The notes beneath the pieces are model-generated. The model ran no database searches, was not told where the DNA came from, and was given only the letters and a program-made list of their open reading frames with translations. 64,000 nucleotides of DNA from Polyangium spumosum (GTDB taxonomy: Bacteria > Myxococcota_A > Polyangia > Polyangiales > Polyangiaceae). The position numbers were made by a program, and so were the translations under genes. Shown here piece after piece: positions 1-24,966 of this stretch. Each line of letters starts with the position of its first letter. Within the stretch, counting starts at the first letter, position 1. The DNA is taken from NCBI RefSeq assembly GCF_009649845.1, contig NZ_WJIE01000007.1, positions 496,001 to 560,000 on the forward strand. The letters run 5' to 3'.

Positions 1-1161
1 GGGCGCGACGCCGAGCAAGCTCGCGCCGAGCACGCGCGGCGAGGGCACGACGGGCAGCACCGGCACGAGCGCGAGCAAGGATCCGAGCAAGAGCCACGCG
101 ATCCGCGGGCGACGCGTGTCGTCCTGCGCTTCGAACGCGCGCTTGAGCGGCACGAAGACCAGGGCCGCGGTGCCGAGCGCGAGCAGCACGGGCAGGGCGA
201 TCGAGGTGTTACCCGGCAGGAGCGTCTCGTCGTCGAGCGCGAGCCACGCGTCCGCGAGGAGCGTGAAGAACCGGCGCGGAACGGCGTACAAAAACGCGGT
301 CGTCTCGCGGAACGGGTCCGTGTAGAAGCCCGAGCCGAACGAGCCGTAGCCGCCCCGGTGCCGCAAGAAGAGGTAACCCGCCGCGGGCAAGACGAAGGTC
401 GAGACGAACGCCGCGCGCCGGAGGAGGCTCTCGCGGCTGCCCACGATCTCGAGGGCGAGCACGTAGCCGCCGAAGCAGACCGCGTACTCCCCGGAGAAGA
501 GCGAGAGCGTGAACAGCGAGGTCGCGAGCGCGGCGTCGCCGAGCCTCCGCCCCTCGCGCCATCGCACGTGCGCGGCGAGGCCCGCGATCCCGAACGTCAG
601 CGAGAGCAGCACCTCGCGGTTGGCGAGCCAAGCCAGCGGGATCGCGTGGGCGGGCGCGAGCGCGAAGACCGCCGTGGCGATCGCGGCGGCCCTCGGCGCG
701 AGCGCGCGCCGGAAGAGGGCACGCGCGCCGAGCACCATCGCCGCCCACCAGGCGAACGAGTGCAGGTGCATCAGGAGCGGGGCGCCGCCGAACGCTTTGT
801 GCTCAAAATATCGGAGCGCGCTCGCGAGAGGGCGAAAGAAGCGGATCTCGAGCTCGGGGTGCGCCCACCAGGGGAGCATGCCGCGCTCGACGAGGCTCGA
901 GCGATCCGCGTCGTTGATGAAGTCGTAGAGCTCGAACGGGCCACGCTCGCCGGGGAACGTGCCCTCGATCATCGACGCCTGGAGGTAATCGTCGAGCAGG
1001 TAGGGCGTACGAATCGCGGGCGCGTAGACGATGACGCCGAGCAGCAAAACGAGGGCGAGGCCGAGCCAGGCCGGGCGACGTTTCGTCACTTCTGACAACG
1101 CTGCAATTGTCGCACGGGGCTGCGGCGCGCGGGAAGGCCTGGGGGCCGCGTCGTTCGTCAT
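1..1161 (-). CDS. GT-C-like polytopic membrane protein (partial, C-terminus outside window)
   Basis: The minus-strand frame is open from an ATG at 1161 to the window edge, giving 387 visible residues and no stop. After a basic N-terminus (KRRPAW) comes a hydrophobic helix, then the loop TPYLLDDYLQAS. An acidic pair just after the first helix is typical of GT-C glycosyltransferases. Next comes RFFRPLASALRYFEHKAFGG followed by a His-rich stretch (MHLHSF), which resembles the 'RPL...G..P..H' signature of TMTC/O-mannosyltransferase-like bacterial proteins. Several more hydrophobic helices follow. The family-based inference is an inner-membrane lipid-linked sugar transferase; the substrate cannot be read. 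A plus-strand frame over the same DNA is Arg/Glu-rich and is a shadow. I am confident that the gene is real and only moderately confident of its family. Confidence 0.7.
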   Translation of the reverse strand, partial: MTNDAAPRPSRAPQPRATIAALSEVTKRRPAWLGLALVLLLGVIVYAPAIRTPYLLDDYLQASMIEGTFPGERGPFELYDFINDADRSSLVERGMLPWWAHPELEIRFFRPLASALRYFEHKAFGGAPLLMHLHSFAWWAAMVLGARALFRRALAPRAAAIATAVFALAPAHAIPLAWLANREVLLSLTFGIAGLAAHVRWREGRRLGDAALATSLFTLSLFSGEYAVCFGGYVLALEIVGSRESLLRRAAFVSTFVLPAAGYLFLRHRGGYGSFGSGFYTDPFRETTAFLYAVPRRFFTLLADAWLALDDETLLPGNTSIALPVLLALGTAALVFVPLKRAFEAQDDTRRPRIAWLLLGSLLALVPVLPVVPSPRVLGASLLGVAP

Positions 1162-4053: not shown

Positions 4054-5232
4054 TCAGGTGGGGCCGCAGATTCCCGGAATGCCCGGGATGCTCGCCGGGG
4101 CCCTCGGGTTCGGCCGAGCGGCGCGCGCCGTCGGGGCCGCTGGGAGCCCGGTGAGCTTCGCGTGGAGCGTGAGCGCCTGCGCGACCACCTGATCCATGTT
4201 GTAATAGCGGTACGTCGCGAGCCTCCCGACGAAATGGACGTTGGGCGTGGCCGCGGCGAGCGCCTCGTATTTGCGGTAGAGCTCGACGTTCTCGGGCCGC
4301 GGGATCGGGTAGCAGGGGTCGCCCTCGGCGCGTGGGTATTCGTAGACGAGGCTCGTCTTCGGGTGCTCCTGCCCCGTGAGGTACTTGAACTCCGTCACGC
4401 GCGTGTACGGGTGCTCGTTCGGGTGGTTCACCACCGGCGCCGGCTGGAAGACCTCCACGCTTTTCGTCTCGAACCGGAACTCGAGGGAGCGGTACGGGAG
4501 CTTGCCGTAACAAAAATCGAAATAGGCGTCGACCGGCCCCGTGTAGATGACCCGGTCGTGGGGGATGTCCCTCTCGACCTCGCGAAAGTCCACGCCGAGC
4601 ATGATCTTGATGTTCGGGTGGTCGAGCATGCGCTCGAACATCCGCGTGTAGCCGTGGAGCGGCATCGACTGATAGGTGTCCGTGAAATACCGGTCGTCGC
4701 GGCTCGTGCGGACCGGGATGGGCGCGGTCACCGAGGCGTCGAGCTCGGAGGGATCCAGGCCCCATTGCTTGCGCGTGTAGCTCCGGAAGAACTTCTCGTA
4801 GAGCTCGCGACCGACCTTGCTGACGATGGCGTCCTCGCTCGTCCGGACCCGCTCGACCTTCTCCGCCCGCTCGGCGAAAAACGCCTCGAGCTCGAACGAC
4901 GTCAGGCGCAGGTTGTACAGGCGATTGATGGTATCGAGGTTGATCGGGATCGGGACGAGCTGCCCGTCGACGGACGCGAGCACCCGGTGCTGGTACGGCC
5001 TCCACGCGGTGAACTGCGAGAGGTAATCGAAGACCTCCTTCGAGCTCGTGTGGAAGATGTGGGGGCCGTACGCGTGGACGAGCAATCCATCGTCATTGTA
5101 ATGGTCATACGCGTTGCCCCCGATGTGGCGGCGCTTGTCGATGAGGAGGACCCTCTTGCCGGACCCACGCGCGAGCCGCTCGGCGAGCACGCTCCCCGAG
5201 AACCCTGCGCCCACGATCAGCCAGTCGAACAT
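4054..5232 (-). CDS. glf: UDP-galactopyranose mutase
   Basis: A 392-residue flavoprotein of the usual family length. It interconverts UDP-galactopyranose and UDP-galactofuranose for galactofuranose-containing glycans. The FAD-binding N-terminus MFDWLIVGAGFSGSV has GxGxxG at residues 9-14. It is followed by LLIDKRRHIGGNAYD, the typical GGN flavin loop, and YGPHIFHTSSKEV. Further family blocks are NRLYNLRLTSFE, YTGPVDAYFDFCYGKLPYRSL and FVGRLATYRYYNMDQVV. I chose the start at 5232 because GGAGG lies five bases before it and the flavin motif begins at once; an upstream in-frame ATG at 5283 has no comparable site. The gene stands alone. The last 25 or so residues are Pro/Ala-rich and not conserved. 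Confidence 0.93.
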   Translation of the reverse strand: MFDWLIVGAGFSGSVLAERLARGSGKRVLLIDKRRHIGGNAYDHYNDDGLLVHAYGPHIFHTSSKEVFDYLSQFTAWRPYQHRVLASVDGQLVPIPINLDTINRLYNLRLTSFELEAFFAERAEKVERVRTSEDAIVSKVGRELYEKFFRSYTRKQWGLDPSELDASVTAPIPVRTSRDDRYFTDTYQSMPLHGYTRMFERMLDHPNIKIMLGVDFREVERDIPHDRVIYTGPVDAYFDFCYGKLPYRSLEFRFETKSVEVFQPAPVVNHPNEHPYTRVTEFKYLTGQEHPKTSLVYEYPRAEGDPCYPIPRPENVELYRKYEALAAATPNVHFVGRLATYRYYNMDQVVAQALTLHAKLTGLPAAPTARAARPNPRAPASIPGIPGICGPT

Positions 5233-5358
5233 GCATCCTCCGCGGCCCTCCACGATCGACGAGCCGCCGGGCGGGCTCGGCATGCGAGCGACGAGGGCAT
5301 GCGTGTCCTCCTAGGGCTCGCGGCGCGGGCGGGAAGCCCCTTCCATCACGCTCGCGGC

Positions 5359-6702
5359 TCAGAGGCCGGTCGGATACGTCTCCGGCGCCTCGCCGGCTTC
5401 CCAGCGCGCTGTTTTCTCGAGCGGCTCGACCGCCCGCGTCACGTCGAAATGAATGACCGCGTCGAACTGGGCGGCGAGGTCGGCGTAGAAATAATGACTC
5501 GCCCGCTCGGTCGCCGGCATGTAGACGACCCCGATGGCCCGCTCGAGCCGCTCGACGTGGAGCGGCGAGAGCCTCGGATCCCGCAAGAGGAGCGCGAAGC
5601 GGTCGAGGCCCGTGGCGTGCAGGACCGCCTCGTAGCTGTCGGGGCGGGCCGGCCGCACGCGTTTTTGCTCCACCTCGGCGCCCCAGCCCGACGCGGCCGA
5701 GACCATCCCCGCATAGGTGGTGAATCCGATCGAAAATGCGTCCGGGTGTCGCTCCCGGACGAGCTGGCCCACGTTGAGCTCGCCCTCGCGGGACATCTCG
5801 GTCGCGCGCGCGTCGCCGAGGTGCGAGTTGTGCGCCCATACGACGATCTTCGCGGGGGCATCGTGGTGACGCCCGAGGTGCGCCCGCAGCGCGTCGAGGG
5901 TCTCGGCCATGTGCTCGTCGCGCAGGTTCCACGAGGCGGCGCCGCCCCGGAACATCGCGCGGTAATATCGCTCCGCGTTCTTCACGAGGCGCGCGTTCTG
6001 CTCGGCGAAGAACGCTTCGTCCTCGCCGTCCGCGTCCGGCGCGCGGCGGGCGTATTCGGGCGCGCGCCGCTGGAGCTCGAGGAGCTGCCGGACGACCTCG
6101 TCCTCGCACGACTCGGCCATCCCGAGGCTCGTCGCATACCCGTACGCCTGCGTGTCGTGCCCGAAGACCTCGAAGCAGCCGTAACGTCGCCGCGCGCGCT
6201 CGGCGCCTTCGGGGTCGATCCGATCGAGATAAGCGAGGACGGCCTCGATCGACGTGTTCAGGCTGTAGAGGTCGAGCCCGTAGAACCCGGCCGCGTGGTG
6301 GGGGTGGGCGTCGTTGTGCTCCCGGAGCCACCGCACGAAATCGAGCACGTCGGTGTTTCGCCACATCCAGGCGGGGAAACGCTCGAACCCGCCGAGCGCC
6401 TCGAGCGGCCCGGGATCCGGGCCCCTGCCTCGGACGAAACGATTGATACGATAGGCGTCGGGCCAGTCCGCCTCGACCGCGACGGCGCAGAAACCCTTCT
6501 CCTCGACGAGCCGGCGCGTCAGGCGCGCGCGCTCGCTGTAGAACTCGTGCGTCCCATGCGACGCCTCGCCGAGCAGCACGAGCGTCGAATCCCCGATCGC
6601 ATGGAGCAATGCATCATGATCGTGCCGCGCCCCCTCGAGCGGGAGCGCGCACGCCGCCACGGCGCGCGGCAGAGCCTCCTGGAACGACGCATGCGCAGCC
6701 AT
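5359..6702 (-). CDS. Erythromycin esterase family protein
   Basis: About 447 residues from the ATG at 6702; a GTG at 6723 would add seven. It carries the signatures of the erythromycin-esterase / succinoglycan-biosynthesis family: [63 protein letters not shown] and [14 protein letters not shown]. The family uses conserved His and Glu residues in the GEASHGT and EADWPDA blocks for hydrolysis. Members include macrolide esterases EreA/EreB, but most chromosomal members have no proven substrate. Antibiotic resistance is therefore possible but not shown. Neither start has a clear Shine-Dalgarno site. The gene is monocistronic between glf and the XRE regulator. Confidence 0.88.
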
Positions 6703-6941
6703 GGGCAAGTCATGGTCCGTCACGGTCGAAATTACAAGCCGTCATTGAAGCGCGCGTGCCCTTCGAGCGCGCGCCCCCGGGGTCGTGCACGCGCCCGCCG
6801 TCGCCCCTCGACGCCGCCCGCGCGCCCGCGATCCAGGCCGTGGATCCACGGTTCTGGCGCGCCCCCGTGTGAGAACGGAATGTTCGCCTAAGTAAAACTT
6901 CACATGAACGTGGCGGAATCATGTTTGGCTGGGCCCTCGGC

Positions 6942-6949
6942 TGTGGCAT
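6942..6949 (+). promoter_or_regulatory. TGTGGCAT element shared by the two XRE genes
   Basis: The octamer TGTGGCAT lies 17 bases before the ATG of the XRE gene at 6959. The same octamer stands at the same distance before the paralogous gene that starts at 27941 (27958-27951 on the minus strand). Six of the nine bases between octamer and ATG also match, and neither gene has a clear Shine-Dalgarno sequence. It could be an operator for autoregulation, part of a promoter for a near-leaderless transcript, or simply leftover similarity from the duplication. Confidence 0.4.
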
Positions 6950-6958
6950 AGTCACGGC

Positions 6959-7330
6959 ATGCCCAGAAGAAAGACGGCTGCTCCCTTCACTTCCAAGATT
7001 GGCGCTCGTATCCGCGCGCTTCGCGTCGAGCGGAACCTGTCCCTGGCCCAGCTCGCGGACGCGGGTGGCCTATCGAAGGGCCATCTCTCCAGCGTCGAGC
7101 ACGGGCTCGCGGCGATCACGGTCGAGACGCTCGAGCGCATCGCGCGCGCGCTCGAGGCCTTGCCGATGGATCTGGTGACGTTCCCCGAGGAGGACGATCG
7201 CGGCCGGATCGCCGACATCGTGCGCAGGTTGCCGAAGAAGGACCTGCCCAAGGTCCGGCGCGAGATGCTGGCGCGTGTCCCGGCGGAGGAGAAAGCGCCC
7301 ACGCGTCGACGCTCGAGCGCGCGCGCTTAG
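6959..7330 (+). CDS. XRE-family DNA-binding regulator (paralogue of the protein at 27603-27941)
   Basis: A 123-residue protein. Residues 12-70 form a Cro/CI-type helix-turn-helix (IGARIRALRVERNLSLAQLA, LSKGHLSSVEHG, TVETLERIARAL). A conserved C-terminal block follows, MDLVTFPEEDDRGRIADIV, then a basic tail. The same architecture and most residues recur in the protein at 27603-27941, so the two form a lineage-specific pair. Both genes also share an upstream TGTGGCAT exactly 17 bases before the ATG, which may be a promoter or operator. It is probably a soluble regulator; its targets are unknown. Confidence 0.85.
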   Translation: MPRRKTAAPFTSKIGARIRALRVERNLSLAQLADAGGLSKGHLSSVEHGLAAITVETLERIARALEALPMDLVTFPEEDDRGRIADIVRRLPKKDLPKVRREMLARVPAEEKAPTRRRSSARA

Positions 7331-7358
7331 AGCGAACGAGGCGCGGGGGCGCTTCGAC

Positions 7359-7553
7359 TCAGGGATCGCCCGGCAGCTTGGGTATTTTTTCGTAATATCT
7401 CGGGTCCGACGGCTGCGTCTCCGGGGGCGTCGGCGTGTGGAGCGAGTGCGGGGGGATATTCCCCTCGGCGTCCGCCGTCGGCGCCCGAGGCGGGCTGTTC
7501 GGCGGCACCTCGGGCTCGCTTCGATCGTCGGGCCTCGATTTTTCCTTCCGCAT
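7359..7553 (-). CDS. Small proline-rich hypothetical protein
   Basis: A 64-residue frame beginning MRKEKSRPDD and ending YYEKIPKLPGDP. It is highly charged at the N-terminus and Pro-rich after that. The support is a good Shine-Dalgarno sequence (AGGAGAG) about eight bases before the ATG and the placement in a gap not used by other genes. A longer version starting at 7790 would be 143 residues but has no better ribosome site. The composition suggests an unstructured peptide. No family is recognised, and it could be a chance frame. Confidence 0.45.
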   Translation of the reverse strand: MRKEKSRPDDRSEPEVPPNSPPRAPTADAEGNIPPHSLHTPTPPETQPSDPRYYEKIPKLPGDP

Positions 7554-7788
7554 CACGATTCTCTCCTGTCTGCCGCGGACGCGCCTCTCGCGCCTCGATG
7601 CGCTCGGGATGCATCGCGCATGCCCCCGGCGCTCGTGCCCGTCCGCCTCCCTGGCTGCGACCCGGCGCGAGGGTACGAACCTCGGTTTGTCGGAGAGCCG
7701 CCGACGAACGAAGAAGGGCGGCAGGTTCGTCGCGGAGAGGGCACGTTCGTCCAGGAACGTGTCCTGCATGCAGAACCGCCGCTCGAGC

Positions 7789-8067
7789 ATGGGTGATCAG
7801 GGTTTGCCCGCGGACTGGGTTCGTCCGTGTGAAACCGAGGCAGCCGAGGACTTCCCGCCGCGCGTCCCGGTGACGTCCACGAGCCTGCGCAGCGTCGGCT
7901 ACAACCCCGAGACGCGCGAGCTCGACCTGGAGTTCAAGGAGGGCAGGCTCTACCGCTACAGCGAGGTGCCTCCGGAGGTGCACGAGGGCCTCCTCCACGC
8001 GCCCTCGCTGGGGAGGTATTTCCTGGCGAACATCCGGGGGCAATACGCCTGCGAGCGGCTCTGCTGA
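7789..8067 (+). CDS. KTSC-domain protein
   Basis: A 92-residue protein. Residues 28-90 match the KTSC domain, a short all-beta domain first noted at the C-terminus of some lysyl-tRNA synthetases: VTSTSLRSVGYNPETRELDL, then FKEGRLYRYSEVPPEVHEGLL and SLGRYFLANIRGQY. Stand-alone KTSC proteins are common in bacteria and their role is unresolved. The start is the ATG at 7789; the frame stays open further upstream but loses similarity. It is convergent with the lipoprotein ending at 8077, with only nine bases between. Confidence 0.8.
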   Translation: MGDQGLPADWVRPCETEAAEDFPPRVPVTSTSLRSVGYNPETRELDLEFKEGRLYRYSEVPPEVHEGLLHAPSLGRYFLANIRGQYACERLC

Positions 8068-8076
8068 AGCGCTCGC

Positions 8077-9834
8077 TCAGCGCGGATCGAGCTTGAGCAG
8101 CGGCGCGCTCGCGATCGGGCTCCAGGTGAACTCGCCGGCGAGCGAGTACACGAGCGCGACCGGGATCTCGTACCGATCCAGCGTGTACGTGATCGTCACC
8201 TCGAGGTCGTCGCTGCCCGTGACGAGCGCCTTGCACGCCTCGCCCACGGCCTTTCCATTCGACGCGCTCTTCGTCCCGCGGTTCGTCGCGATCTTCACGT
8301 CGGCGCACGGGAAGGCCTTCGCGAGCTTCTCGCGCTCGCCCTTGAGGCCATTCTTGTATTTCGTCTCGGCGGCGCTCTTCGCGGCCTTCGCCTTCGCCTC
8401 GGCCGCCTTCGCCTCGGCCACCGCCGCGGCGTCGCCGCCGTCCACCTGCGAAAGGTCCGCGGACGCCTTCTCGTATTCGCTCGACGCGATGTCGAACGGC
8501 ACCCGCAGCCGCCTGTCGATGCCGTCGCCCTGCAGGTGCAGGTTCCACGTCACGCTGAGCTTGCGTTGCCCCTTGGAGAGCGCCGTGTCGTCCGCGTGCT
8601 CGGTGATCGAGGCGCTCTTCACCGACCCGGTGAGCTCGTTCTTGGTGAAGCTCACCTCCGGCATCGCCCCCGGCACGTCCTCTCGCGTGATCCCGAGCAG
8701 GCTGAGCTTCGCCTTCGCCATGTCCTGGTAGACGACCTTGTTCTCCTTGACGTACACGAGGACGTTGCCCGACGCGTGCACCGCCTCGCCGGACGGGAGT
8801 TTTACCATTTGCAGCGTCATCGACTGCGGCGGCAGATCGAATTCGAGCGGCGGGCTCTCGAGGATGTCGGCCCGCGTGTACCGGATCGGATACCGCAGCT
8901 CGAGGTGCGTGAGCGGCACGGCGGGCGCGTCCTTGCTGGCGTCCTTGGCCGCCGTCATCGAGAGGACGTTGTACCGCGCGCTCCGATTGCCCTCCGCCTC
9001 CTCGCGGACGGGCACGAACGCCACGTGCCCGGACGCCTTGTCCCGGATCCGCACGGCGTCGCCGACGAGCGCGAGATCGAAGTCCGCCTCGTCGAACGTG
9101 GAGGCGTACGATTTCACGAACACCTTGTTCGCCTTGACCAGGACGCGTCCCCGGATCTGCGAGGGCGGCATGTCCGCGAGCACGACCGACTCGCACTCGT
9201 TTTTCCGCGCCACGAACCGGATCCGCTCGCCCGGCCGCCATACCCGCTCGTTCGTGGAGCTGCTCTCGTTCTTCCAGGCGGTGGGCTTCTCTCCCGTGAA
9301 GGGATCGGCCTTCGCGCCCTCGGGGACGTTGTTGAAATGGAGCGTGTACGTCGTGTTGTAATAATCGCCCACCGAGTCGGGGCCGAACTTGCACTCGACC
9401 TCGCGGTCCCCATTGAGGAACCGCACGTTCCCCTCCAACCACGCGTCCGAGAGGACCTCCCCCGTGTCGTTCGTCGCCTCGACGATGACGCCCACGCCAT
9501 ACGCCGAGTTCTGGTCGCGGGTGCTGTAGGTGCCGTTGTCGCGCACGTTCGGCATGGCGCGCTCGGACGAGAACGGGTGGAAGAGCTGCAGGTCCTTCAC
9601 GCTGACCTGGATGGTCCCGGTCGAGGGGGGCGTCGTCGGCTGCGCGACCGCCCCGCCGCCGCTCTCCCCGGAAGGCGCGGCGCCGCTCCCCGCGGGCGCG
9701 GCGGCCGACGGAGCGCCGGAGGTCGCCGGCGTCGCGCTCCCCGCGGCGCCCTCCTTGTTGCCACAGCCCGAGCCGGCCCCGACGAGGGCGGCGAGGAGAA
9801 CCCAGCTCATGCAAAAATGATTGTCCGGACGCAT
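8077..9834 (-). CDS. Large lipoprotein of unknown function
   Basis: A 585-residue protein. The N-terminal signal ends in GAGSGC (lipobox Cys at about 24). A long Ala/Ser/Gly/Pro-rich linker runs to about residue 75. A globular region of predicted beta-strands follows (IQVSVKDLQLFHPFS, GVGVIVEATNDTGEVLSDAW). Near residues 460-510 is an Ala/Lys/Glu-rich helical segment (AEAKAAEAKAKAAKSAAE) that could form a coiled coil. The last 60 residues again look beta-rich. A second in-frame ATG at 9810 would leave no positive charge before the hydrophobic stretch, so I prefer 9834. It is likely anchored in the cell envelope. No known family is recognised. Confidence 0.75.
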   Translation of the reverse strand: MRPDNHFCMSWVLLAALVGAGSGCGNKEGAAGSATPATSGAPSAAAPAGSGAAPSGESGGGAVAQPTTPPSTGTIQVSVKDLQLFHPFSSERAMPNVRDNGTYSTRDQNSAYGVGVIVEATNDTGEVLSDAWLEGNVRFLNGDREVECKFGPDSVGDYYNTTYTLHFNNVPEGAKADPFTGEKPTAWKNESSSTNERVWRPGERIRFVARKNECESVVLADMPPSQIRGRVLVKANKVFVKSYASTFDEADFDLALVGDAVRIRDKASGHVAFVPVREEAEGNRSARYNVLSMTAAKDASKDAPAVPLTHLELRYPIRYTRADILESPPLEFDLPPQSMTLQMVKLPSGEAVHASGNVLVYVKENKVVYQDMAKAKLSLLGITREDVPGAMPEVSFTKNELTGSVKSASITEHADDTALSKGQRKLSVTWNLHLQGDGIDRRLRVPFDIASSEYEKASADLSQVDGGDAAAVAEAKAAEAKAKAAKSAAETKYKNGLKGEREKLAKAFPCADVKIATNRGTKSASNGKAVGEACKALVTGSDDLEVTITYTLDRYEIPVALVYSLAGEFTWSPIASAPLLKLDPR

Positions 9835-18089: not shown

Positions 18090-21005
18090 ATGAGGTTTCG
18101 CACGATTCGACGGCTGCTCGCGGCGACGGTTCTGGTGGGTGGCCTCGCTGCGGTCGCCGCCGCCCCCATCCGGCGCGCGCACGCGGCCGTTCCGCTGACG
18201 ATCACCAACCAGGGACGCCTCTTCGACGCGAACGACACGCCGATCAACGGCCCGCTCACCGTGAGGTTCGCGATCTACGACGCGCCGGACGCGCAGGCGC
18301 CGCTGTGGAGCGAGGAGCACACGATCGAGTTCGACGAGGGGTTCTACTCGGTGTCCCTCGGCTCGCTCGTGCCCTTCGACAAGGTGTTCGACGGCTCGGT
18401 CCGGTACCTCGGGATCACGATCGAGAGCGACCCCGAGCTCTTGCCGCGCGCGCCCATCCAGAGCGTGCCCTATGCATTGCTCGCGAACGACGTCAACGGG
18501 GACATCCACCCGACGACCGTCACGATCAACGGCACCGAGGTCATCAATAACAACGGCGAGTGGGTCGGCCCGCCGACGGGCCTCGTCGGGCCGACGGGGC
18601 CGATGGGGCCGACGGGCGCCGACGGGCCCGTGGGTCCGGTGGGCGCGACGGGCGTGATGGGTCCGGTGGGCCCCGAGGGTCCGATGGGTCCGGTCGGGCC
18701 GATGGGGCCGACGGGCGCGATGGGGCCGATCGGGCCGATCGGTCCGATCGGGCCGGTGGGCGCGACCGGCGCGACCGGCGCGACGGGCGTGACGGGTGCG
18801 GTGGGTCCGATGGGGCCGATGGGCGCGACGGGGCCGATGGGTCCGCAAGGAGATGTAGGCCCCACCGGGCCGGTTGGACCCATGGGGCCACAGGGTATCA
18901 CCGGTCCTCAGGGTGAGATCGGACCCATGGGACCGACCGGGCCGATGGGCCCGCAGGGGGCCGTGGGCCCCACCGGGCCGGTTGGACCCATGGGGCCACA
19001 GGGTATCACCGGTCCTCAAGGTGAGATCGGACCCATGGGACCGACCGGGCCGATGGGCCCGCAGGGGGACGTAGGCCCCACGGGGCCGGTTGGACCCATG
19101 GGGCCACAGGGTATCACCGGTCCTCAAGGTGAGATCGGACCCATGGGGCCCACCGGTCCCATGGGCCCGCAGGGGGCCGTGGGCCCCACCGGGCCGGTTG
19201 GACCCATGGGGCCACAGGGTATCACCGGTCCTCAGGGTGAGATCGGACCCATGGGGCCCACCGGTCCGATGGGCCCGCAGGGGGACGTAGGCCCCACCGG
19301 GCCGGTTGGACCCATGGGGCCACAGGGTATCACCGGTCCTCAAGGAGAGATCGGACCCATGGGCCCGACCGGTCCGATGGGCCCGCAGGGCGCGACCGGC
19401 GCGATGGGTCCCCAGGGGCCCATCGGTCCGCAAGGCGCCACCGGCGCGCAAGGCCCCATCGGTCCGCAAGGCGCCACCGGCGCGCAAGGCCCCATCGGTC
19501 CGCAAGGCGCCACCGGCGCGCAAGGCCCCCAGGGCGCCACCGGCGCACAGGGCCCCATCGGTCCGCAAGGCGCCACCGGCGCGCAAGGCCCGCAAGGCCC
19601 CCAGGGTCCCGTCGGCGCCACCGGCGCGCAGGGCCCCCAGGGCATCCAGGGCCCGATCGGCCCCACCGGGGCGCAAGGTCCCGCGGGTCCGGCCGGCGCC
19701 ACCGGCGCGCAGGGCCCGCAAGGCTCCCAGGGTCCCGTCGGCCCCCAGGGCCCCGCCGGCTCGGCCAACATCAATGGCACGACCAATACCATCGTCAAAT
19801 TCACCGGCCCCACGACGGGCGGCAACTCGAGCATCACCGACGACGCCACCACGGTGACCACCACCGGCCGGTTCGACGTCACGGGCGGCGCCGGCACGGG
19901 TTACGACGCCGCCTCCATCGAGGTCCGCACGACGAACACGCCGAGGATCGCCTTCCACTGGCCAGGCGTCGTCGCCTCGCAGCTCGGCATGGGCAACGAC
20001 GGCGTCGTGCGCACGTACAACAACCCCGGCACGGGTTACGAGCAGTTCGCCGCCTCGAACATCCACGCGAACGGTTATCTGCGCGTGAACTCGGCCGCCG
20101 ACACCGGCGGGAACCTGCGCTTCACCGCGGCGAACCCGTACATCGTCGCGAGCTCGTACGTCGTCGTCCCAGGCGGCGCCTATTTCAATTCGGGCACCGT
20201 CTACTTCCAGGCGCAGGCCCAGTTCCGCGGCGGCATCCACAACGACAATGGCCCGTACCTGCAATACGACGGCGGCACCTCGAACATCAACTACTTCCCC
20301 GGCGTCATCGGCGTCGGCACCGCGAGCCCGGCCGAGCAGATCCACGCGACCGGCAACATCCGGGCCGACGGGATCGTCTACTGGGGCAATGGCCTCACGC
20401 GCACCGAGACGAAAAACAACGCCGACGCGACGGGCTCCCGGAGCGGCTTCTTCGAGACCTCGGCCCCCGTGAACTACTACCCGAACGCCTCCGGGTGGCA
20501 GCACCTCATCGACGTGCGCCATTCGAATGGCGGCAACAACCACGCATTGCAGATCGGCGGCAGCTTCTTCGACCAGGACCTCTGGTATCGCAAGACGAAC
20601 AACGCCGGCAACACGACCTGGCTGCAGCTCATCGGCCGCGGCCCGCGGCAATGCACCGCGCCATTCAACGCGATCGGCGCGACCACGACGACGACCCTCG
20701 GCGGCATCGCCCGCTCGAACACCATCTGCGCCACCACCTGGTTCGCCGCGCAGACCTTCAACAACGCGCAGAACGTCTGCGCCGCGCTCGGCGGGCACAT
20801 CTCGACCTACAACGACCTCTACCGGCTCGCCCAGGCGAACGGCACGGGCTCCGTCCTCTTCAACGGCGACTGGATCGGCAACCGCTCCGGCGACGACGAC
20901 GCGTACTGCATCAACTCGACGAACCTGACGAACTTCGAAGGGAACTGCGACAAGAACAACAGTCGCATCTTCCGCTGCGTCAACAGCTCCAATTACAATG
21001 AGTAA
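18090..21005 (+). CDS. Collagen-like surface fibre protein with tail-fibre/lectin-like C-terminus
   Basis: A 971-residue secreted protein. A signal peptide ([19 protein letters not shown]) is followed by a beta-rich head ([32 protein letters not shown]) often seen at the N-terminus of bacterial fibre proteins. About residues 166-560 are an unbroken run of some 130 Gly-X-Y triplets, rich in GPT, GPM, GPQ and GAT, predicted to form a triple helix. Residues 254-433 are five exact-length 36-residue repeats. The C-terminal 400 residues look like phage tail-fibre or pilus-tip modules ([36 protein letters not shown]). It ends in a Cys-containing C-type-lectin-like block ([25 protein letters not shown]). 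A trimeric adhesin is the likely role. A Shine-Dalgarno AAGGACGAG precedes the ATG. Confidence 0.85.
18849..19388 (+). repeat. Five 108-bp tandem repeats coding 36 residues (12 collagen triplets)
   Basis: The block GGTATCACCGG recurs at 18893, 19001, 19109, 19217 and 19325, always 108 bases apart and without indels. Each unit encodes G-(D/A)[17 protein letters not shown] and a second half ending GPTGPMGPQ. Units alternate GDVG, GAVG, GDVG, GAVG, GDVG, which implies a 216-bp higher-order unit. Differences between units are nearly all synonymous (for example cctcagggt against cctcaaggt). The array is prone to expansion or contraction in whole collagen triplets, so fibre length may vary. Confidence 0.95.
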
Positions 21006-21462
21006 AGGCGCCGGGCGCGCGAAGATCCCGATCCTCGTCGCGCTCGGAGGCCTCGTCGCGGCGGGCGCGGCGCTCCTGCTCCGGAACGGGCAGGGCGCGC
21101 CTCCCGAGCCCCCGGCGGCGAGACCCGTGACCGTCGATCAAGCGTTCGTCCCGGAGCGCCCCCGGAGCCCGACGCCGCCGCCGCCCGCGCCCCCCGCGGC
21201 CCCGACCCCCGCGGGCGCAGGCGTGGAAACCACGCGGCGGGTCATCGATCCGGCGCAGGTCTTCAACGAGCCCGGCGAGCCCCTCACGCCGCCCGAGATT
21301 CGTGTCGACGTCGAGGTCGACCCCCGCGGCGCCATGACCGCCGAGCCGCTGATCCCTCCCGTTCTCCAGGCCGACGTGGAGGTCGACCCCCGCGGCGCCA
21401 TGACCGCCGAGCCGCTCACGCCGCCGGTCCTGGAAAACCCGGCCGAGCCCGCGCGCCGCTGA
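20998..21462 (+). CDS. Small membrane-anchored proline-rich protein
   Basis: A 154-residue protein whose ATG lies inside the last codons of the collagen-like gene (ATGAGTAA, 8-base overlap), so translation is probably coupled. Residues 10-27 form one hydrophobic helix ([19 protein letters not shown]) with no lipobox. A Pro/Ala-rich stalk follows. Near the C-terminus a 23-residue segment is repeated twice: [18 protein letters not shown] and [18 protein letters not shown]. It could anchor or help export the fibre protein, but this rests only on gene order. Confidence 0.7.
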
Positions 21463-21518: not shown

Positions 21519-22712
21519 ATGATCCCGAGGCCCCTCGCCCGTGCCCGCCGCCTGCCCGCGCTCGTCCTCTGCGCCGCGCTGGCCTGGGGCTGCGACCGCA
21601 CCCCCGAGCTCGCGCGTGAGCACCTCGCGCGGGGCGACGCGGCCCTCGGCGCCGGCCGCTTCGCGCAGGCCCTCGCGGCGTACGGACACGCGCGCGAGCT
21701 CGCGCCCACGGATCCGGACGTGCAACGCGCCCTCATGCGCGCCAGGCTCCACCTCATCGCCGAGAGCGCCGCGCGGATCGCCCCCGAGGCCATCGAGGAC
21801 GCGCGTTACGAGGCCGAGCTGCTCTTCGAGACCGACAAACCTCGCGCGCCCGTGTACCTGACCGCGCTCGGCAACATCCTGGCCCGGCAGGGCGACGCCG
21901 AGGGGGCGAAGATGAAGTTCGCCGAGGCGCTCGTGATCGACCCGAAATCGCCGCTCGCGCACACGGCGCTCGGGCTCGTGCTCATGAGCCGCAAGGAGGA
22001 CGCCGCGCGCGGGAAGGCCGAGTTCCAGGCCGCGCTCGCCGTGAAGCCGGACGCCGCCGGGGCGCTCGTGGGCCTCGGGCAGCTCGAGCTCGCCGACGGC
22101 GATTTCGCGGGCGCCGCGGGGCACCTCGAGGCGGCGCTCCAGGTCGCGGAGAGCTTCGAGGCGCGCCTCGCCCTCGGCAGCGCGCGGGCGAAGCAGGGCA
22201 AGCCCATGGACGCCATCCGGCATTTCCAGCGCGCCGCCGAGCTCGACCCGAAGAGCGCCGAGGCCGTTGGTTCGCTCGGACAGGCGCTGCTCGGCGCGGG
22301 CAAGGTCGAGGAGGCGGAGCGCGCGCTCCGGGCCGCCGCGCAGATGCGGCCGGATCCGGAGACACGAAATGCGCTCGGCTTCGCGCTCGTGCGGCAAAAG
22401 AAGGCGGCGGCCGCGCTCGACGTCTTCCGCGGCGTGCTCGGGGACGAGCCCGCCTCGGCGCCCGCGCTGCTCGGCGCGGGCGTCGCGAGCGAGGAGCTCG
22501 GGCAAAAGGAGCAGGCCCTCGCCCATTATCAGAGGCTGCTCGCGCTCCCGCCGGGCGGCCTCGACGGGCGCATGCTCGCCGACCTGCAAAGACAAGCGCA
22601 GAGCCGCGTCGCGGAGCTCTCGGCCACGCCGCCGGCCGCCGCCGGATCGGCCTCGGCGGGCTTGGCGCCATTGCGACTGGATGCAAAGCGGAGCCTGGAG
22701 AGGCCTTTCTAA
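21519..22712 (+). CDS. TPR-repeat lipoprotein
   Basis: A 397-residue protein. The signal ends in ALAWGC (Cys at about 25). From residue 30 to 350 it is a chain of helical 34-residue units with TPR character: ARGDAALGAGRFAQALAAY, LTALGNILARQGDAEGAKM, HTALGLVLMSRK and ALGSARAKQGKPMDAIRHF. TPR arrays bind peptides or scaffold complexes, so this may be an outer- or inner-membrane assembly factor. It sits third in the run collagen-like protein, anchored protein, TPR lipoprotein, selenoprotein, with short gaps (56 and 48 bases). A role in handling the fibre protein is a guess from context. Confidence 0.8.
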   Translation: MIPRPLARARRLPALVLCAALAWGCDRTPELAREHLARGDAALGAGRFAQALAAYGHARELAPTDPDVQRALMRARLHLIAESAARIAPEAIEDARYEAELLFETDKPRAPVYLTALGNILARQGDAEGAKMKFAEALVIDPKSPLAHTALGLVLMSRKEDAARGKAEFQAALAVKPDAAGALVGLGQLELADGDFAGAAGHLEAALQVAESFEARLALGSARAKQGKPMDAIRHFQRAAELDPKSAEAVGSLGQALLGAGKVEEAERALRAAAQMRPDPETRNALGFALVRQKKAAAALDVFRGVLGDEPASAPALLGAGVASEELGQKEQALAHYQRLLALPPGGLDGRMLADLQRQAQSRVAELSATPPAAAGSASAGLAPLRLDAKRSLERPF

Positions 22713-22760
22713 ACGAAAAGGGATCGACGGCAGGGTCGCGAACATGGTAAGCAACCCGGC

Positions 22761-23411
22761 ATGTCCCGAACGAAGAAGGTCCTGGTTTCGGTCGCAGCGC
22801 TCCTCGTGGCGGCGGGCGCGGTCGTCGTGGGGTGGATCGGGCCGCGCAACGTCATTGGCATGTTGCGGTACGACCAGCGTGAAGAGGGGCGGCTCGCGGT
22901 CGGCGACGCGGCCCCCGACGTGGAGCTCGTCTCGCTCGGCGAGGGGCGGCGGGAGAAGCTCTCCGCGTACATCGGGGAGAAGCCGCTCGTCCTGATCTTC
23001 GGCAGCTTCACATGACCGCCCTTCCGGCGCTCGGTCGAGCGCCTCGAGGCGATGTTCGGGCGATATGGCAAGAGCGCCCGTTTCCTCACGGTCTACATCA
23101 AGGAGGCCCACCCGACCGACGAATGGCAGATGGACGTGAACGAGAAACACAACGTCTGCTACCCGCAGCCGCGGAGCACCGAGAGCCGCGTGGCCATCGC
23201 CGCCGACTTCGTGAAGCGCTTCGAATACGACATTCCGCTCCTCGTGGATCCGATCGAGAACCCCGCGAACGCGGCCTATGCGGCCTGGCCGGAGCGGCTC
23301 TACGTGATCGACGAGAAGGGGGCCATCGTTTACAAGGGCGGGATGGGGCCGTTCGAGTTTCACCCGGAGGAGGTGGAGACCTGGCTCGCCCGGCGGTTCC
23401 CGGGGGATTGA
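22761..23411 (+). CDS. Iodothyronine-deiodinase-like selenoprotein (in-frame TGA = selenocysteine 85)
   Basis: Read through one TGA (23013-23015), this is a single 216-residue protein; a standard caller would give false pieces of 84 and 119 residues. Residues 8-26 are a membrane anchor. From residue 27 it matches the deiodinase family of thioredoxin-fold proteins: PRNVIGMLRYDQREEG, VGDAAPDVELVSL, then PLVLIFGSFT-U-PPFRRSVE. Known deiodinases read GSCTU at the same point, so U85 is the expected redox residue. The downstream half keeps the family blocks FLTVYIKEAHPTDEWQM and RLYVIDEKGAIVYKGG. The frame is unchanged across the TGA, which argues against a frameshift. Bacterial members have no proven thyroid-hormone-like substrate; a membrane-attached selenol reductase or peroxidase is the inference. 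No strong Shine-Dalgarno site is seen. Confidence 0.9.
23026..23043 (+). promoter_or_regulatory. Candidate bacterial SECIS hairpin
   Basis: Ten bases after the TGA at 23013-23015 stands a perfect 7-bp inverted repeat: GGCGCTC (23026-23032), loop GGTC (23033-23036), GAGCGCC (23037-23043). Bacterial SECIS elements are hairpins inside the coding region just 3' of the UGA, with a G in the first two loop bases and the loop roughly 16-37 bases from the UGA. Here the loop starts 18 bases after it. This element would recruit SelB with Sec-tRNA. The match is to the general model only; no folding program was run. Confidence 0.75.
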
Positions 23412-24025: not shown

Positions 24026-24117
24026 GGGCCGCAGCCTAAGGCGCGCGCCGGCCCCGCGCAATGCCGGCCGCGCACGAGCCATGGACAGCCGGGCGCGGGA
24101 GGGCTACGAGGTTCCGC

Positions 24118-24966
24118 ATGCCCCGGCCCATCGCCCCCTCCGAGCGCCGTGACGCCTTCGAGCGCGACGGTTTCCTCGTCCTGCCCGGGTTCGTCTCGGT
24201 CGACGCGTGTGAGGCCCTCCGGCGCCGCGTCGAGGAGATGGTCCGAGACTTCGACCCGGAGGCGCACCGCTCGGTCTTCAGCACCCACGAGCAGACGCGC
24301 ACCTCCGACGCGTATTTCCTCGAATCGGGCGGCGAGATCCGCTTCTTCTTCGAGGAGGGCGCGCTCGATCCGGAGGGCCGCCTGCGCGTGCCCAGGGACC
24401 GGGCGCTCAACAAGATCGGCCACGCGATGCACGACCTCGATCCGGTCTTCGATCGATTCTCGCGCACGCCCGCCCTCGCGGCGCTCTCGGCCGAGCTCGG
24501 CCTCGCGCGACCGGTCCTAATTCAATCGATGTACATCTTCAAGCAGCCCCACATCGGCGGCGAGGTGGTCTGTCACCAGGACGCGACGTTCCTCTACACC
24601 GATCCCGTCACCGTCACCGGCTTCTGGTTCGCGCTGGAGGACGCCACGATCGAGAATGGCTGCTTGTGGGCCGTGCCCGGCGGACACCGGCAGGGGCTCA
24701 AGAAGCGTTTCTTGCGGGACGGGCGCGGAGGGACGCGCTTCGAGGTGCTCGACGAGGCGCCGCTCGTCGAGGACGGCGCGACTCCTCTGGAGGTCCCGGC
24801 CGGCACGCTGGTCGTGCTCCACGGCCTGCTCCCGCATCGAAGCGCGGAGAACCGCTCGGGGCGGTCGAGGCACGCCTACGCCGTGCACGTCGTCGATGCG
24901 GACGCGTATTACCCCGAGGACAACTGGCTCCTGCGCCCCGACCTGCCTTTGCGTGGTTTTTCCTGA
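24118..24966 (+). CDS. Phytanoyl-CoA dioxygenase (PhyH) family protein
   Basis: A 282-residue Fe(II)/2-oxoglutarate oxygenase-like protein. The start at 24118 has GAGG six bases upstream; an earlier ATG at 24061 would add 19 unconserved residues. Near the N-terminus is FERDGFLVLPGFVSVDACEAL, typical of PhyH proteins. The iron triad is visible as H153-Q-D155 (VVCHQDATF) and H240 (LLPHRSAENRS), with a nearby Arg for 2-oxoglutarate. The MYIFKQPHIGGEV and ENGCLWAVPGGH blocks resemble the PHYHD1 branch rather than true phytanoyl-CoA hydroxylases. It is a cytoplasmic hydroxylase of unknown substrate. It is convergent with the SGNH lipoprotein, four bases apart. Confidence 0.85.
   Translation: MPRPIAPSERRDAFERDGFLVLPGFVSVDACEALRRRVEEMVRDFDPEAHRSVFSTHEQTRTSDAYFLESGGEIRFFFEEGALDPEGRLRVPRDRALNKIGHAMHDLDPVFDRFSRTPALAALSAELGLARPVLIQSMYIFKQPHIGGEVVCHQDATFLYTDPVTVTGFWFALEDATIENGCLWAVPGGHRQGLKKRFLRDGRGGTRFEVLDEAPLVEDGATPLEVPAGTLVVLHGLLPHRSAENRSGRSRHAYAVHVVDADAYYPEDNWLLRPDLPLRGFS

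Follow-up and report, generated by a model that had tools for sequence, protein, structure and literature searches.

How should a bacterial gene be read when a single in-frame TGA divides it, and what would the full-length product do? The question is raised by a locus of Polyangium spumosum on contig NZ_WJIE01000007.1, where positions 496,001 to 560,000 of the forward strand were analysed. This whole stretch of 64,000 nucleotides is called the window here, and coordinates refer to it unless another locus is named. The gene lies on the plus strand at 22761-23411. The frame starts with ATG, passes through GSFT-TGA-PPF and ends with a second TGA. The sole internal TGA is at 23013-23015, and when it is read through, the frame encodes 216 amino acids with selenocysteine (Sec, U) at residue 85. 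A mechanical listing of open reading frames splits the gene into 22761-23015 (84 aa) and 23052-23411 (119 aa). A preliminary description of the window had noted two same-frame pieces parted by one TGA, and both the reading of the frame and the listing confirm this. It had also claimed that the joined pieces form a continuous deiodinase-family protein and that a frameshift is unlikely, and this is borne out by the Pfam model T4_deiodinase (PF00837), which matches residues 39-212 as one stretch (1.8e-38, 132.6 bits, above the curated cut-off of 27). The motif GSFT-U-PPF is also as described; in detail, the known enzymes have SCTU (Dio3) or SATU (Dio2), and the protein studied here has SFTU.

The TGA could be a true stop, in which case the gene would be a broken pseudogene or the product of a sequencing error, and the two pieces given by ordinary listing agree with this. 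The gene was found in five of the six Polyangium genomes searched, including its own, and all five keep both the TGA and the frame. The sixth genome, G377, has no deiodinase match at 1e-10. Copies in named Polyangium contigs are 89-90% identical to the window gene. Because the identical TGA is present in four other Polyangium genome assemblies, a sequencing error at 23013-23015, a concern raised in the preliminary description, is very unlikely. A comparison of the five Polyangium copies gives a pN/pS of 0.23 for the part before the TGA and 0.13 for the part after it, both far under 1, which indicates purifying selection on both sides, and the ten codons following the UGA show no amino-acid change. 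The gene thus has an in-frame UGA with conserved coding sequence on either side, as is looked for in bacterial selenoproteins. Together with the U found at this site in most aligned relatives (see below), these observations make a stop or an error extremely improbable. Just before the ATG, a purine-rich AAGAGG occurs in the four other Polyangium copies compared and is missing from the P. spumosum copy (22719-22760).

Deiodinase-family matches at 1e-5 were found in 48 of 377 Myxococcota genomes surveyed. There are 61 such matches, of which 51 contain TGA, one of these also having TAA. The family is probably under-annotated in Myxococcota, because ordinary listing breaks the gene and so large a share of the survey matches carry UGA. 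The aligned set was made up of the 61 survey matches and three loci from named Polyangium contigs. In the 61 aligned rows that hold the Sec-site column the residue is U in 54, C in seven and any other in none; six more aligned pieces without this column are not among these rows. The 54 U rows include L052 and L053, which are the contigs of L087 and L088 recorded again and already counted, and L082, which possibly belongs to the same gene as L042, as another piece of it. The homologue check at position 85 that had been proposed therefore finds only U or Cys and no other sense codon. Several loci differ in arrangement. L036 (G280) has two convergent TGA-type deiodinase genes of different subtypes at 1456-2662, and in L039 (G005) a fragment of the second subtype, cut before the Sec site, lies beside the first subtype on the opposite strand. 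In L084 (G372, 6278-8866) an 862-aa frame contains the Cys form, with EF-hand matches ahead of the deiodinase domain; this genome has selA and tRNA-Sec.

Can P. spumosum insert selenocysteine? The preliminary description had called for a search for selA, selB, selC (tRNA-Sec) and selD, and all four are present in the genome. The tRNA-Sec scores 69.7 bits, has a TCA anticodon and is adjoined by selB (287.9 bits); selA and selD score 490 and 390.3 bits. A tRNA gene search of the window itself found none. Four further frames with one in-frame TGA each (L115-L118, at C5:326889, C14:141758, C39:15808 and C30:1907) are selenoprotein candidates, with the motifs TSGU, GHWULYC, HPTUSAC and CHVU. The TSGU, GHWULYC and HPTUSAC proteins match the AhpC-TSA model. 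We take the TGAs in all four frames to be likely redox sites, with the TSGU protein presumably peroxiredoxin-like and the CHVU protein SelW-like. None of the seven formate-dehydrogenase-model matches in the genome has a stop inside it. Among the survey genomes, 39 have a TGA-type match; selA was found in 38 of them (1e-60) and tRNA-Sec in 36 (1e-8), and matching by hand showed that each has one or both. G191 has no selA at 1e-60, and G203, G243 and G344 have no tRNA-Sec at 1e-8. In the other genomes selA occurs in 202 of 338, a lower frequency than in TGA-type genomes (Fisher p 1.8e-7, with kinship ignored).

A SECIS-like hairpin on the plus strand at 23026-23043 starts ten bases 3' of the UGA. 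It has seven pairs, with arms at 23026-23032 and 23037-23043 and the loop GGUC at 23033-23036. In contrast to the SECIS of the animal deiodinases, it lies inside the reading frame. In this copy the 53 nt starting at the UGA are no more stably folded than shuffled sequences (z -0.73), and the apical 26 nt compared with synonymous recodings gives z -2.08 (p 0.048). The same synonymous-codon test on 50 distinct Sec stretches gives a mean z of -1.70, with p<0.05 in 26 and not in 24, compared with a mean of +0.40 and p<0.05 in none of seven Cys genes (Mann-Whitney p 5e-5, for rows that are related and counts that are not independent). Covariation was examined in 23 relatives taken from 29 aligned rows plus L055 and chosen for one register. 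Both sides have changed in two of six pairs and the score was reached by none of 500 shuffles; the third pair is not formed as written in 15 of the 23 rows. The window copy, L051, L024 and L025, in which the hairpin sits one base off this register, lie outside this set, as do L056, L054 and L070, and other subtypes were not in the starting rows. Rfam gave no match in the window at gathering scores. The hairpin fits a bacterial SECIS, and the folding signal is marginal for this copy alone and clear family-wide.

The overall identity of the protein was examined with further models and with a predicted structure. The NCBIfam model NF038285 (deiodinase_rel) scores 196 bits, under its cut-off of 250, and AhpC-TSA (PF00578), of the same fold superfamily, scores 31.5 bits, above its cut-off of 26. 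The peroxiredoxin motif, which we take to be P-x-x-x-T/S-x-x-C, is broken at its Pro, where the protein has Leu78; Ser82 agrees with the T/S position. The AlphaFold model was built from 35 aligned sequences and has a mean pLDDT of 86. From residue 51 on, ten-residue blocks lie at 90-98, except for 82 at residues 191-200, and residues 5-23 are under 50. The best Foldseek matches are mouse Dio3 (4tr3, 2.9e-17) and Dio2 (9h48, 2.3e-16); in a structure comparison both have Z 24.5, and the next match has 17.2. Peroxiredoxins, Tpx and ResA-like thioredoxins resemble it in the core of the fold, with Z about 15-17 (16.0 for 3hvv, the Tpx of E. coli), but the deiodinase model scores far above the AhpC-TSA model and the protein has no CxxC. 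Sec machinery, a site that holds only U or Cys, the SECIS-like hairpin and the fold all agree with the deiodinase-family selenoprotein first proposed. As judged from sequence, the UGA is very probably read as selenocysteine, and we are confident that the gene truly encodes a Sec protein and that this protein belongs to the deiodinase-like branch of thioredoxin-fold proteins.

How closely does the protein resemble an iodothyronine deiodinase, of the kind with which animals process thyroid hormone? It shares with mouse Dio3 and Dio2 the fold, the position of Sec, the Ser and Thr before Sec, the PPF after it, the Tyr-Glu-His relay and the omega-loop Trp. In a pairwise comparison Ser82, Thr84, Sec85, Pro86, Pro87, Phe88, Tyr112, Glu115, His117 and Trp122 are equal to Dio3, and so are Arg143, Glu178 and Arg179. 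The catalytic Sec and the Ser/Thr/Tyr/Glu/His relay of the iodothyronine deiodinases are therefore present. Tyr112, Glu115, His117 and Trp122, encoded on the plus strand within 23094-23126, are the counterparts of the Dio3 proton-relay and omega-loop residues Tyr197, Glu200, His202 and Trp207, and these four and Arg143 are invariant in the 35 aligned sequences, two of which are Cys forms. The roles of the Dio residues have been described (PMC7506546, PMC11592359, PMC9141512). However, several residues of the thyroxine site and both Dio cysteines are lost. Dio3 Arg275, His219 and Arg176 are replaced by Met195, Pro137 and Ser91, the proximal Cys168 by Phe83, the distal Cys239 by Ile158 and Phe258 by Pro177; Asp211 aligns with a loop that contains gaps, and its counterpart is uncertain. 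A His is kept at position 137 in 21 of 54 Sec relatives. Since Dio2 also has no proximal Cys according to the portion of PMC11592359 available, and mouse Dio1 has Pro at the Phe258 site, neither of these differences distinguishes the protein from the animal enzymes as a group. Pro177 was once considered as an argument against deiodination, and this was dropped because of the Pro in Dio1.

The protein had been described as membrane-anchored. One N-terminal hydrophobic segment (residues ~7-26, plus strand, 22779-22838) follows a positively charged start, with best 19-residue Kyte-Doolittle means of 2.51 from residue 8 and 2.49 from residue 7; the segment is there, and the anchor itself is a prediction. 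A course of events may be proposed from these features. The hairpin that directly follows the UGA would recruit SelB and tRNA-Sec, which would insert Sec at residue 85, and a single N-terminal helix would tether the protein in the inner membrane with the catalytic domain outside the cytoplasm. The selenolate of Sec85 may then attack an electrophilic atom of a small substrate, assisted by Ser82, Thr84, Tyr112, Glu115 and His117 if these residues act as they do in Dio3. Cys133 would resolve the oxidised Sec85, a part that in most of the other Sec copies would fall to a Cys where this protein has Phe150, after which a thioredoxin-like protein or a small thiol could reduce the bond. A peroxide or a similar oxidised molecule would be the likeliest substrate, with reductive dehalogenation as the main alternative.

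The case for a resolving cysteine depends on the relatives. Cys133 (plus strand, 23157-23159) is the only cysteine besides Sec85 and is the candidate partner. Eight of the 54 Sec rows, those from Polyangium and G254, have a Cys at this position. Where the window protein has Phe150 (plus strand, 23208-23210), 39 of the 54 have Cys, and none has Cys at both places. Of the remaining Sec rows, four include column 150 and show Cys at neither position, and three are without this column. Cys at 133 or 150 is thus found in 47 of the 51 Sec rows with column 150, compared with none of six Cys-type rows (p 5.8e-6, with kinship ignored). None of the seven Cys-type rows, which are mostly distant relatives, has Cys at either position; one is without column 150 and three are without column 133. 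A reading in which the family has no conserved resolving cysteine was abandoned on this count. In the AlphaFold model position 150 lies in the helix of residues 140-154, which Cys133 precedes. PtGPX5 and E. coli thiol peroxidase have a resolving Cys in a similarly placed helix, about 11.5 Å from the reactive Cys in the E. coli enzyme, according to the sections of PMC7506546 available. The Cys150 helix of most relatives may therefore correspond, in the model, to the resolving-Cys helix of Tpx. The distribution suggests that the resolving cysteine has swapped place in the Polyangium lineage, as a trait of one lineage. The assignment of Cys133 as the resolving residue is tentative, with the chances somewhat against it. 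The cysteine count slightly raised the share given to peroxidase-like chemistry.

The preliminary description had placed the gene last in a run with a collagen-like protein and a TPR protein. The plus-strand collagen-like gene (18090-21005, Pfam Collagen 5.1e-57) is followed by a short protein gene (20998-21462, no Pfam match) and a plus-strand TPR gene (21519-22712, Pfam TPR); the collagen-like and TPR genes are given as context only. Downstream, at 24061-24966, is a gene for a PhyH-family dioxygenase, and the Polyangium contigs compared likewise have it close to their deiodinase gene. No promoter-like sites and four terminator-like sites were found (shuffle mean 2.7), and a plasmid search gave one weak Mycolicibacterium match. 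In L083 (G254) a sigma-54 activator with XylR_N and V4R domains is encoded on the minus strand at 4204-5814, and roughly 0.6 kb separates it from the deiodinase gene. Could the protein be a redox helper for the adjoining collagen-like and TPR proteins of a surface-fibre run? The order collagen-like, short protein, TPR, deiodinase recurs in four other Polyangium genomes (L051, L085, L087, L088), as such a role would lead one to expect, although in L088 the TPR frame is about 250 bases further from the deiodinase gene than in L085 or L087. Neighbours were clustered at 26 loci, each covered by roughly 9.5-20 kb of sequence; 23 of the loci lie beyond Polyangium. At these 23 the 40 largest clusters show no neighbour that keeps a constant position, and the clusters with at least four loci are deiodinase pieces, frames that overlap them or one four-locus cluster at scattered positions. 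In the Polyangium contigs examined the gene is last in the run; a search of the other deiodinase loci did not find the run there, so it says little on function. Since no neighbour in these clusters keeps its place outside the genus, context does not reveal a substrate. A function based on an operon was set aside since the run was not seen beyond the genus at the loci compared, and a helper role for the fibre proteins is quite unlikely.

The more serious question is whether Sec85 reduces peroxides or strips I, Br or Cl from aromatic compounds, environmental or self-made. The residues linked to deiodination among those listed above (Ser82 to Trp122) are kept and are invariant or nearly so in the 35 relatives, the Pro-Pro after Sec is that of Dio2 and Dio3, and Pro177 equals the Pro of mouse Dio1. 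The XylR_N regulator in G254, of a kind linked to aromatic catabolism, points in the same direction as one case. Against dehalogenation, Dio3 Arg275, His219 and Arg176 are replaced, though some Sec relatives keep the His. At the proximal-Cys position 53 of the 54 Sec rows carry Phe or Tyr and the remaining one carries Ile, and Dio1 needs its proximal Cys for glutathione reduction (PMC9141512, in the part available). The authors of PMC1088965, in the sections available, expect no thyroid hormones in the organisms they studied, and no halogen-related gene was recognised among the few neighbours checked by Pfam. Reductive dehalogenation is possible and rather unlikely. The presence of a second Cys, the folds that come nearest after the deiodinases and the thyroxine contacts that are missing lead to a moderate preference for peroxide reduction. 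The reading we favour, by a slight balance of probability, is a Sec enzyme that is exported, tethered to the membrane and peroxidase-like in its chemistry.

Bacterial deiodinase-like selenoproteins have been in print since 2005, when they were described from the Sargasso Sea (PMC1088965), and the window gene is therefore an addition to a described group. In the portion of that paper available there are four Sec sequences, a table gives six beside them that are taken here as Cys homologues, and the authors anticipate that these proteins do not share the function of the animal enzymes. The Sargasso proteins are like the window protein in belonging to Pfam00837, in having Sec with a bacterial SECIS and in having known Cys forms. 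However, the motif given for that family is UxxC in the available text of two reviews (PMC9312934, PMC13188914), and the window protein has UPPF. Among the aligned Sec rows only L075 (G014), a distant Sec copy with UPYC, has the motif listed for bacterial deiodinase-like proteins. The main text of the two reviews, as available, holds no word beginning "myxococc", and the word "deiodinase" is absent from the part of PMC4807772 available. Among the matches listed from the open-licence literature there is no paper on a myxobacterial deiodinase-like selenoprotein. A Dictyostelium deiodinase homologue has been reported (PMC2375036, in the part available).

What might the family tell about the animal enzymes? 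In a tree of 57 rows the Polyangium copies group with G254 at a support of 99/100. The mouse enzymes Dio2 and Dio3 are placed within the SxTUPPF clades, whose order the tree leaves open, and not with the outer group, which holds six of the seven Cys rows. The tree is midpoint-rooted, its long branches meet and its bacterial sampling is of Myxococcota only. It is conceivable, and quite improbable, that a broad Myxococcota SxTUPPF radiation includes the animal deiodinases, with enzymes that still dehalogenate reductively outside the cytoplasm and are recycled by a cysteine, in a helix or a loop, that has shifted between lineages. If this were true, a bacterial dehalogenase would be the source of thyroid-hormone chemistry. 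The Polyangium-group gene, with its Sec machinery and SECIS-like hairpin, offers a place to test what bacterial deiodinase-like proteins do, and Cys133 is a specific residue with which such tests could be made.
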